Assembly: GCF_035083965.1 (NCBI RefSeq)
Contig: NC_089724.1
Location: 25,306,974-25,370,973, forward strand
Direction of reading: 5' to 3'
DNA from: Branchiostoma lanceolatum
Lineage: Eukaryota > Chordata > Leptocardii > Amphioxiformes > Branchiostomatidae
Length of the DNA: 64,000 nt
In this document: one piece after another, positions 53,617-63,782 of the stretch
Numbering within the stretch: the stretch's first letter is position 1
Layout: every line of letters starts with the position of its first letter
Made by a program: the position numbers and the translations under genes
Notes under the pieces: generated by a model
Databases searched by the model: none
What the model saw: only the letters and a program-made list of their open reading frames with translations
Told to the model about the DNA's origin: nothing

Positions 53617-56600
53617 CTAATCACCACTTATCATCAAATCCACCCACCATCCGTCTCGGAACACTGACACGTCGATGGTTTGTCTGTTTTCTCCCCCCAT
53701 TTCATTAGACAAAAAGCAAATTGTCGTAGGCATGTAGATCAAGCTAAAGCGAGAGTCGAGAACAATGTTTTGGGGAGGGGGGCAGTTCAGATCTATAAGG
53801 TTGCTAAAGTCAAGGTTTTCGACCATCTGTCTGTAATACGTGTCAATATTCTGCAGAAAGGTGTCAAAGTACGCTCGTTCCCGGTTCTTTTCAATAAAAG
53901 TCGTGGGCAGCTGGTCTGAAAGAGAAAAACACGAAATTATATTATTTTCTGTTCCTCAGAATAAATCGACATATTGACTGTGCACAATCAAATCCTAAGT
54001 ACAAAATTATCATGTCATTACTTTACTCATTAACGATTCTTGATATCAACGCCATGCAGGCTATTATTTTGGGGTGTCTGCAATGTTGATATGTAAATAA
54101 AGAATCGAATAATGCTATTTCGTACACCGGATGGAGCTAACAATTATGACAGTGTCTTGCTTTGACAAGACAGAACGAGATTTTCTAACGGTTTGATCTG
54201 TGGCATAATTTTTTCTAAAACCATGTTGATTTGATCATATGGGTGACATCCTCCCGGAACCCCAAAACTGATGCAAGCGTGCGAATAAAAAAAAGTTTAG
54301 CAAAAAAAGTTGCCTTCATTATGAGATCTACGTGCATGGTCAGGAAGGTTGAACAAATGACTGAATTAGTATCGTTTTCCGATATCTTTTTTTGCAACTT
54401 ACGGCAAACATTTGACCATTTTGCTGCTGCATTGTATGATTTACAATATGGTGGAAAACGTTTTGCTATTTTTGGATCGGACGAAACCGTTAGTGGTGCT
54501 GCCAATAAGCATGTTCCCAGGAAACGAGTGAGGCCACAATCTAGCAAACCTTGGATAACACCCCAGATTCGCAAAGCATTTCGTAAGCGGTCTGAACTCT
54601 TCTCCAAGGCTAGGAGATCCAACTCCCATGAAGCCTGGGCAAAGTTCAAGAGGTGTAGGAAGGGAGTTAAGCAGAGAGTTAGGAAGGCCCATAGGGATTA
54701 TGTTTCCAACTACCTTGAGACAAACATCGAGGATAATCCCAAGGCCTTTTGGAGCTATGTCAAATCTCTCAGACAGGACTCTACTGGTGCATCGGCCATA
54801 AGACACCAGGGGGTGCTAACATCTGACCCCCAGGAAAAGGCTGATGCACTGGGAGCCCAGTTTGAGTCAGTGTTTACCAGGGAGGATAAATCTACCGTTC
54901 CTACCCTTGGCGAATCCGTAGTTCCAACTATCCCCTCCCTTAACATCTCAGTGGAGGGGGTAGCCAAACAGCTCTCTAGTCTTAATCCCAGCAAGTCCAC
55001 AGGACCAGACGGAATACCACCTCGCCTCCTGAAAACTGTTGCCGAGCAAATTGCGCCAATACTACAGACAATATTCTCCCAATCAATATCTACGGGAGAC
55101 GTACCTGAGGATTGGAGAACAGCTAACATCGCTCCAATCTTCAAAAAGGGTGACAGAACAATGCCTTCCAACTATAGGCCGGTGTCTTTGACATCGGTCT
55201 GTGGCAAAGTGCTTGAACACATAGTGCACAGCCACATGATGAAACATCTTGACACTCATGGCGTTCTGTCCCCGGCGCAGCACGGTTTCAGGAAGGGTCT
55301 GTCCTGTGAGAGCCAGCTGGTACTCACCCTCCAAGACTTGGCCAACAATCTTGACCATAACAAACAGGTCGATGTCGCGGTGCTTGACTTTAGCAAGGCA
55401 TTCGACACCGTGCCCCACGAGCGGCTGCTAAGCAAGCTCGAGCACTACGGCATTTCTGACCTTCTTCAGTCTTGGTTTAGGGCCTTCCTAACAGAGAGAA
55501 CCCAGAGGGTTGTCTTTGACGGCGGAACATCTAAAGCTGTCAGGGTCACCTCTGGAGTCCCTCAGGGTACAGTGTTAGGCCCCTTGCTCTTTCTACTGTA
55601 CATTAACGACCTCCCCAGCTCCGTAGATTCACACGTTCGATTATTTGCTGACGATTGCTTGATTTATCGAACTATCAGCACGCCTTCTGACGCACAAGGT
55701 CTACAGTCTGATCTTGATGCACTAACAGATTGGCAAAATCGTTGGCTTATGTCGTTCAATCCCTCTAAATGCCACATCCTCCATATCACCCGTAAAAAGC
55801 ACCCCATCCTAACTCAGTACTCCCTAAGTGGAGAAGCCCTCACCGGTGTCAAGTCCCACCCCTATCTTGGAGTACAACTGTCCGACGATCTGCGGTGGGA
55901 CACCCATATCAACTACGCCACTAGCAAAGCCGGCAGGGTACTAGGGGTCATTCGGCGCAATTTGACCCATTGTCCATCTAGGGTCAAGGCCACTTGTTAC
56001 AAAGCGCTGGTGCGGCCCCACTTGGAATATAGTGCCACCGTCTGGGACCCGTACACCACCAAAGGGATACAGGCGGTGGAGGCCGTCCAGCGCAGGGCCG
56101 CCCGAGTGACTCTGAATGACTACCGGCAGACTAGCAGCGTGACACAAATGCTCAATGACCTGCAGTGGACCCTTCTCTCTGAAAGGAGGAGGAACGCCCG
56201 TCTCACCTTTTTCTATAAGCTAGTTAATAACCACATCAATATTAATACAGATAGTCTACTGAAACCAGCTCAGGGGCGCACCCGGGGAAGCCACACGCTC
56301 AAATTTCAACCACTTTACGCCCGAACAGACTCATTTAAATATTCTTTTTTCCCTCGCACCATACCCGAGTGGAACGCCCTGCCTGGCGCGGTTGTTACGG
56401 CTCCCACCGTTGAGTCTTTCCGCGCCAGGCTGGAGGCCTGCCCGCCTTAGCCTGGGACCTCCTCCCCCCCCTACTTTGCCCCTCGCGGGGTTATCTGGGG
56501 GTTTACTAAGTTGAAGTAAGTTGAAGAAACTTGATGCGCGCGCGAATGTCATCCATATAATCAAATCAACACGGCCTAACAAAGACGTAACTCATTTCCA

Positions 56601-62600: not shown

Positions 62601-63782
62601 GGCAAAAACATCCTACAAAAGGCCGTATAGACGCTTGGATAGCAGCTGGTTGAAATGTTGCCCAGGTTCGATCCAAAAAACATGTACTCTCTCGAGGTGA
62701 TCATCTGCTGGAACGACAGATGTCCAAAGGCGTTCGGGAATGACACAGTATTGTACCCGGTGAGGGGTTCACATATGCCTTGGAATGCCTGTGGAAAGGG
62801 TTCACATGCACCTGTAGAAGAGGAACATAACAAATATTGATATAAAGATCGACTTAAAGCCAGCTGATTCCTTCTATAGCTACACAAATAATGATCTAAG
62901 TGTGAAACTGGTGCCCAGTTGATATTGTTTTCTGCACACAAATAATGTGTCGCAAGACAGAACAACGTGCTGATTAAAAACTAGAGTTCCACGACCTCAT
63001 ACCTTCGCCAAGTAGTTTTTCTCATTACAATGTTATTAGTAACTATTGGAATCACCTAATGTATATGATATATGACTTACAAACTTGTGTAATTAAGCGT
63101 AGGGGGAAACTTCTTCAGAATTGTAAAAAATATAAGATATTGCGTTAAAACACCAAATGACCTATCATCATGCATTCGATCAACCTTACAATCTAATTAA
63201 GCATCCTTCTCTTCATCATGTCAAACTTTTCAAGTTTACCGGATGTTGGCTCAAGACATTCCTCGTCATCCCTGCTCGGCAAATCTTCACAGCTTCTTGG
63301 CCATTCTTCACCGATATCTTGCAGGGGACCTTCACAACTGGCTCGAACTTCATCACACAGTTCTCGGCATGGTGGGGTCTGAGGGATAAACAACATTATC
63401 AAGAATTTTGGAGGCTAAATAGGAATGCCCTCTTTATTTACCATTAGCTTTAGGTAGATAAACTGTGTGTTATAAGACAAAGTCATGTGGAGAAGACGAG
63501 CAATCAGGATCATAATGCATCTTACGGGAACGCTAGGTCTGTCTTACACGTTGAAAGTTCCATAACTCACTTGCTGGTCATCCTCGCACTTAGGAAACAA
63601 CGTCGTGCACACGAGGAATTCAAATGACGGGTGACATCCCGATGCTCGGTTCAGGGCAAGTGCGGCTGGTAAAGACGCTGTCTGTGAGGTCTGGTTTAAG
63701 TAGTTGGGTAGAGATGTGTTCTCATACGGCAAGAGATGGGTGCAAATGAACTCTGCTGAAGGAGTGATAGGTTGACATACAC
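53617..63782 (-). CDS. Multi-Frizzled-CRD and VWC-like extracellular protein (3' part)
   Basis: Twelve exons in consistent phase, about 678 residues, with the 5' end beyond the right edge: 63782-63571, 63378-63240, 62811-62579, 62172-62037, 61873-61663, 61325-61198, 60507-60265, 59625-59512, 58914-58888, 58439-58413, 56892-56623 and 53915-53617. The first six encode three Frizzled-type cysteine-rich domains, each split over two exons and each with ten Cys (for example ATCGERALAAGVEW, CRELCDEVRASC). The next exon starts with a Thr/Pro-rich linker, then two short VWC-like modules (CEYGGQMYPPGTTIYETPGC; CEHNGEYYEDGTVLTVDGTT). Two 27-nt micro-exons add Thr/Pro linkers (ETTTPPLTT, EQATTPRTI). The last two exons give about 188 residues I do not recognise, with few Cys. 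No membrane helix is visible, so it is probably secreted or its anchor lies upstream. Frizzled CRDs bind Wnts, and VWC domains often bind BMPs. Confidence 0.82.
54231..56534 (+). mobile_element. 5'-truncated LINE with intact reverse transcriptase frame, antisense in intron
   Basis: One open frame (54231-56450, 739 codons) carries the linker before RT (SSKPWITPQIRKAFRKRSEL), the RT domain from about residue 313 (NYRPVSLTSVCGKVLEHIVH), the catalytic FADD at 472-475, and a C-terminal part to SFRARLEACPP. The apurinic-type endonuclease is missing, so it is 5'-truncated. The 3' end has an AAGTTGAAG repeat (about 56506-56534). It belongs to the CR1/jockey-like non-LTR group. It lies in the last intron of the multi-CRD gene, opposite in sense. 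The intact frame suggests a recent insertion. The true ORF start is upstream and lost; the first residues are probably host-derived. Confidence 0.88.
56940..57260. repeat. Minisatellite, units of about 27-40 bases
   Basis: Variants of TAGTAGATATAAAGTGTTCA recur about nine times, in an intron of the multi-CRD gene. Confidence 0.8.
57733..57818. repeat. (ACTAG)n pentanucleotide array
   Basis: About 13 perfect ACTAG units with ACTAT at the edges. Confidence 0.95.
59060..59310 (+). repeat. Repeat family A fragment
   Basis: CCAAACCTACACCACTTA, AGAGCTATCTACCACT, CATGTCCACAGCACGAGATA and CCGCTAGATGGCCC closely match 7545-7690. An inverted-looking remnant continues at 59655-59750. Confidence 0.7.
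59328..59459. repeat. (GA)n microsatellite
   Basis: About 65 uninterrupted GA units follow the family A fragment, close to the second VWC exon of the multi-CRD gene. Confidence 0.97.
62283..62510. repeat. (CTAT)n facing (ATAG)n, giant palindromic microsatellite
   Basis: About 28 CTAT units, an AT-rich centre and then about 15 ATAG units. The two arms can pair. It lies between CRD 2 exons of the multi-CRD gene and the transcript would fold there. Confidence 0.93.
62978..63022 (+). repeat. Family A 5'-end fragment
   Basis: AACTAGAGTTCCACGACCTC ATACCTTCGCCAA is nearly identical to 6044-6080. Confidence 0.75.

Follow-up and report, generated by a model that had tools for sequence, protein, structure and literature searches.

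Proteins that carry a Frizzled-type cysteine-rich domain (CRD) are described with one such domain or with two. Secreted Frizzled-related proteins (sFRPs, sizzled among them) join a single CRD to a netrin (NTR) domain. Corin combines its CRDs with LDLR repeats, an SRCR domain and a trypsin-like protease. It has two CRDs, predicted in the account of PMC6747125 to prefer different Wnts; a first-pass annotation of the DNA studied here had likewise put known CRD proteins, as a rule, at one or two domains, in agreement with this literature. Platynereis FzCRD-1 is described in PMC4669655 as a CRD-only, probably secreted protein. The window analyzed here – 64,000 nucleotides (nt) of the lancelet Branchiostoma lanceolatum (assembly GCF_035083965.1, contig NC_089724.1, positions 25,306,974 to 25,370,973) – contains on its minus strand, between 63782 and 53617, what is likely most of a single gene with three adjacent Frizzled-type CRDs, a Ser/Thr/Pro-rich linker, two four-cysteine modules and a C-terminal region that matches no family.

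Three complete ten-cysteine CRDs stand in series from 63782 to 61198, spread over six exons: CRD1 in E1 (63571..63782, cysteines C1 to C5) and E2 (63240..63378, C6 to C10), CRD2 in E3 (62579..62811) and E4 (62037..62172), and CRD3 in E5 (61663..61873) and E6 (61198..61325). All six exons are covered by matches to the Pfam Fz model and have splice scores behind them as well; the acceptor of E5 is not the top-scoring one within its open frame, and that of E6 is weak (90th percentile). Each CRD exceeds the Pfam Fz gathering cut-off of 32.1 bits, with 69.5 bits for CRD1 (4.4e-19), 47.3 bits for CRD2 (3.4e-12) and 72.9 bits for CRD3 (3.8e-20). The ten cysteines occur in order in all three, and the spacing from C3 to C8 (8, 6, 8, 3, 6) is the same throughout. 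On these profile scores and spacings the three are members of the Frizzled CRD family, as the first-pass annotation had claimed for a row of three.

The distance between C7 and C8, given in PMC6938638 as six residues in Frizzleds and seven in receptor kinases (RTK), is 6, 6 and 6 in the three CRDs: a Frizzled rather than an RTK spacing. Sequence matches in the PDB point the same way, with Fz7 as the top match of CRD1, sizzled (a secreted inhibitor of Xwnt8) as that of CRD2, and Fz2 as that of CRD3; within a limit of E 0.001, CRD1 alone matched Smoothened chains, and did so weakly. Receptors of the Fz1/2/7 class are thus the closest PDB relatives of CRD1 and CRD3 and share with them the six-residue gap. 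Among themselves the CRDs are 27–37% identical in pairwise comparisons over their aligned parts. The CRDs probably bind Wnts or other lipids, to judge from these likenesses.

The exon organization of the CRDs is regular. An intron falls between C5 and C6 in each (phases 0, 0 and 2), one CRD is separated from the next by a phase-1 intron, and this is the pattern expected from duplication of a two-exon unit. All eight introns outside the C5/C6 splits, in a gene model of 12 exons, are of phase 1. The internal exons of lancelets are reported to be rich in 1-1 phases, and exons of shuffled domains more so (PMC4284660): the structure of the gene fits published lancelet exon shuffling. A tblastn search for a tandem paralog elsewhere in the window found nothing beyond the gene itself at E below 0.1, and CRD3 found no relatives among viral contigs in a single-protein query, which reaches close relatives only.

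Exons of the 12-exon model were defined by stop-to-stop reading and splice-site scoring of the minus strand, and the joined chain, E1 to E12, runs to 686 residues with zero internal stops. Beyond CRD3, E7 (60265..60528) encodes the linker and the first four-cysteine module (C-x18-C-x6-C-x15-C), and E8 (59512..59625) the second (C-x19-C-x-C-x12-C). The first 45 residues of E7 are 62% Ser, Thr or Pro, and the mucin-like linker proposed in the first-pass annotation is borne out. There follow, on the strength of splice scores, two mini-exons of 27 nt and phase 1-1: E9 (58888..58914), which is Thr/Pro-rich, and E10 (58413..58439). A candidate third, E10b (57437..57472; 36 nt, phase 1-1, V-CPSITSPDLDT), was found by tracing a strong donor at 57437 in the E10/E11 intron; it has splice scores on its side and would supply one more cysteine, and was left out of both the 12-exon model and the joined chain used for searches. 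The C-terminal region is encoded by E11 (56623..56892) and E12 (53617..53915), the latter ending in the stop codon; both are backed by splice and codon scores. Inside E12, position 53648 resembles a donor (score 4.0, phase 2), through which a further 3′ exon is conceivable. Because E1 opens with a phase-1 acceptor (a split codon), an upstream exon is expected beyond base 64000. The start of the protein therefore lies outside the window: three CRDs is a minimum, and a signal peptide or a membrane anchor may be encoded there. The highest 19-residue Kyte-Doolittle mean in the visible chain is 1.33, so that no membrane helix is visible in this part, as had been noted before.

Whether these exons belong together depends on splice sites, phases and mini-exons, and from these a single continuous gene is likely. 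When the best site of each open frame was taken without regard to phase, the result equaled the model at 11 of 12 acceptors (the exception being E5) and at 10 of 11 donors (the exception being E8, whose modeled donor takes second place in its open frame to a donor-like site at 59316, on the edge of a (GA)n array). Ten of the 11 junctions formed by these top-scoring pairs are consistent in phase (binomial P 1.3e-4, with a chance of 1/3 each). Open 1-1 exons of 18–60 nt with a splice sum of at least 7.0 number three in the 2.6 kb from E8 to E11, compared with two in a background of 104 kb of strand (window positions 1–52000); with the length limit set at 130 nt instead the counts are three and eight. 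Codon scores were trained on the NACHT-LRR open reading frame (ORF) of the window plus E1–E6 against the introns of this gene. Compared with intron segments, E11 reaches the 100th percentile on these scores and E12 the 99.4th; exons as short as E9 and E10 cannot be judged in this way. The claim that one gene joins CRDs, cysteine modules and an orphan C-terminus thus gains from splice scores, phases and mini-exons, on a basis that is computational. The E6/E7 intron has one more open phase 1-1 candidate on the minus strand, of 123 nt (60975-60853; splice sum 6.7); it was not adopted and may be an optional exon or chance.

The C-terminal region comprises 189 residues (the first-pass annotation had about 188) and its description as belonging to no recognized family stands: Pfam, NCBIfam and PHROGs gave zero families, and a PDB search with E up to 10 gave seven rows, the best at E 0.26. 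The bromodomain, cerebellin fusion and WbbZ among these rows were judged to be chance matches, involving as they do short pieces at E 0.26 or above. Single-protein queries, which reach close relatives only, found no relatives of the region in viral or in bacterial and archaeal contigs. The structure prediction that had been proposed was run with the two exons folded apart, and AlphaFold returned models of low confidence (mean predicted local distance difference test score, pLDDT, 51.8 for E11 and 44.5 for E12). These models suggest helices followed by strands and nothing beyond; their confidence is too low for a fold search.

These data lead us to favor, at about an even chance, a multivalent extracellular protein built on Frizzled CRDs, which arose by CRD duplication and the joining of phase-1 exons and acts as a trap or carrier of Wnts or lipids. 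The chain as modeled would consist, in order, of at least three CRDs, a Thr/Ser/Pro stalk of the type that is O-glycosylated, two four-cysteine modules, a Thr/Pro linker made of mini-exons, and the C-terminal region of 189 residues. According to the computed structure, the CRDs would have come from a duplicated two-exon unit and the modules would have been joined via phase-1 introns. The CRDs may present lipid grooves of the Frizzled type and could act together as a multivalent trap or carrier that takes up Wnts or another acylated or lipid ligand; the stalk and the C-terminal parts might space the trap and tether it to matrix or partners. Wnt signal would then be lowered or spread, much as by sFRPs or a secreted Fz CRD, with higher avidity. 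We infer an extracellular location because of the cysteine-rich modules and five N-glycosylation sequons in the chain.

Comparison with described proteins places the gene near several classes and inside none. With sFRPs it shares a Frizzled-class CRD and the lack of a visible membrane helix, and CRD2 is closest to sizzled; where sFRPs have one CRD and an NTR domain, however, there are here at least three CRDs and, in the visible part, no Pfam match to NTR. FzCRD-1 of Platynereis is alike in its Frizzled-class CRD. Corin is alike in having more than one Frizzled-type CRD per protein, whereas the three CRDs found here are adjacent and, for the visible part, Pfam lists neither a protease nor an LDLR or SRCR domain. 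Frizzled receptors differ in that the CRDs here are in tandem, and neither Pfam nor hydropathy shows a seven-helix region in the visible part. On architecture, then, membership of the sFRPs, the Frizzled receptors or the corins fails for the part of the protein that can be seen. By analogy, the nearest working counterparts would be sFRPs along with secreted forms that consist of a CRD only; where several CRDs are concerned, it would be corin. The literature was searched for proteins with three Frizzled domains or with Frizzled domains in tandem, and among the matches listed (titles and the beginnings of abstracts) there was no protein with a tandem triple CRD; many of these matches concerned other meanings of CRD, and the search does not prove that none exists. 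The parts come in an unusual order; the gene model is well supported, and the function is one that we infer. If transcripts confirm the model, the protein would combine three adjacent Frizzled domains with a C-terminal region that has no family match, and would join the few proteins with several CRDs. It would furnish, too, a clean case of modules being duplicated and phase-1 exons being joined. It raises the question of whether CRDs in series provide avidity, or Wnt selectivity of the kind predicted for corin (PMC6747125).

Several observations weigh against this reading. CRD2 is divergent: it has the lowest Fz score, and its C8 and C9 are 10 residues apart as against 14 and 15 in the others. 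Many Fz-type CRDs are without a known Wnt role in the account of PMC6747125. Secretion is presumed for a chain whose N-terminus lies outside the window. The splice-site tables are general averages rather than tables trained on the genome itself; the regions and frames of the exons were picked beforehand, so that the test of phase agreement was not blind; and phase guided the choice of the E8 donor. For the mini-exons, the threshold of 7.0 was placed barely below what E10 scores; raised to 9.0, it leaves E9 alone against two in the background. The null distribution for codon scores was drawn from the very introns that supplied the background table and is rough, and a frame other than the modeled one gets the higher score in E7 and in E8.

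The best-placed rival, which we regard as unlikely yet worth weighing, accepts an extracellular CRD protein and gives it a ligand other than Wnt: sterols, fatty acids, a protease or microbial surface molecules, as part of a shuffled extracellular or immune repertoire of the kind that lancelets possess. The Smoothened CRD binds oxysterols (PMC3809587), the functions of the two CRDs of corin are given as unknown in PMC6747125, and the promiscuous domains of lancelets are reported to favor receptors and extracellular matrix (PMC4284660). Yet it is structures of Frizzled and sizzled, not of Smoothened, that rank highest in the sequence matches of the CRDs.

An improbable alternative is that two or more adjacent genes have been joined in the model, in which case the CRD gene would stop behind CRD3 or module 2 and the C-terminal region would belong to a gene of its own. 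Banyai and Patthy (PMC4967905) ascribe many apparently new domain architectures in lancelets to misprediction and describe gene-model errors as frequent; with exon shuffling and the misprediction of architectures both published for lancelets, the arrangement seen here is the less surprising. The last intron (E11/E12), of 2.7 kb, contains a retroelement, a further point for separate genes. A second gene also requires a start, and 15 hydrophobic ATG openings were considered as such. Three of them have a good phase-1 donor: 59502 and 59472, both in the E8/E9 intron and running into the (GA)n array, share the donor at 59316 (score 3.7) and could in principle be the start of a second gene that is spliced to E9, and 55129, antisense to the retroelement, has a donor at 55105 (score 5.9). 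The other 12, however, lack any phase-1 donor above -1.7. Also contrary to separate genes are the phase coherence of the best splice sites from E6/E7 to E11/E12 (five of six junctions, P 0.018), the run of mini-exons between E8 and E11, and the frame of E6, which remains open beyond its strong donor.

The four-cysteine modules bear on a third alternative, that of a dual modulator with Wnts on the CRDs and bone morphogenetic proteins (BMPs) on the modules, the two kinds of ligand named in the first-pass annotation; we consider it very unlikely. The last cysteine of module 1 adjoins the first cysteine of module 2, the internal spacings being 18-6-15 and 19-1-12. Both modules contain the motif C-x3-G-x2-[YF]-x2-G; of 20,000 residue shuffles, 476 produced it one or more times and a single one produced it twice. 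A fuller pattern of the SD1/FN1 type is fitted by module 2 and arose in 15 of 20,000 shuffles. The modules are, from such patterns, four-cysteine modules with a beginning like that of VWC-SD1/FN1. In crossveinless-2 (CV2), Clip plus SD1 of VWC1 suffice for binding BMP2 and SD2 is dispensable, as stated in PMC2944808 and PMC6270503. Half a VWC domain is thus compatible with BMP binding, but the case is that of a single, particular VWC domain, and according to PMC6270503 a CV2-like Clip sequence is apparently missing from many VWC domains.

Beyond the short N-terminal motif, and a C-x-C found in module 2 only, the likeness of the modules to VWC proteins of the chordin/crossveinless-2 class ends. 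Searches of Pfam (E up to 10, with filters that drop most matches above about 0.1) gave neither VWC nor Fn1 for the modules: the matches, all under cut-off, were to Big_11, DUF7210 and a 28-residue 'VWF-like' model (PF23244, weak, on module 2 at 0.022). A PDB sequence search with the modules found three chains, zero of them VWC, with a best E of 0.1. Neither the VWFC signature nor its C-terminal CC..C half occurs in the modules. The fibronectin type I pattern (C-xn-C-x-C-xn-C with Y-x-x-G) fits module 2 and not module 1, again with no Fn1 match in Pfam. The family label VWC ('VWC-like' in the first-pass annotation) was accordingly dropped and a weak resemblance kept: a domain search of the joined frame recovers the three Fz domains, no VWC and nothing for the C-terminal region. 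For the proposed pair of ligands this leaves the Wnt type plausible, by the six-residue C7-C8 gap and the best matches to Frizzled and sizzled; the BMP type has the short motif, and BMP binding by the modules is unsupported.

Least probable of all would be a new class of multivalent extracellular morphogen trap in which at least three serial CRDs differ in Wnt specificity, a mucin stalk connects them to half-VWC modules that hold BMP-family ligands, and an undescribed C-terminal fold serves as anchor, so that gradients of Wnt and BMP are coupled by a single molecule.

The retroelement in the last intron is represented by a reverse-transcriptase ORF (RVT_1, 1.1e-34) on the plus strand at 54219-56450; it is probably young, since its 743 codons remain open without a stop. 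Diverged direct repeats of 26–39 nt adjoin E11 (56952-57240). Within the E7/E8 intron an inverted repeat (59748-59853) has 31-nt arms, 94% complementary and 44 nt apart, and resembles a small element of the MITE (miniature inverted-repeat transposable element) type. Simple arrays occupy introns at 57736-57814 (ACTAG pentamer), 59322-59460 ((GA)n) and 62293-62520 (TATC/TAGA). Elsewhere in the window, open frames for transporters of the major facilitator superfamily lie at 30602-30949 on the plus strand and 36521-37099 on the minus strand (MFS_2 3.4e-10, MFS_1 4.2e-13), and a NACHT-LRR ORF at 8813-11449 on the plus strand (NACHT 3e-23, LRR_6 1.7e-11) represents an innate immunity gene of the NLR type in one open frame.

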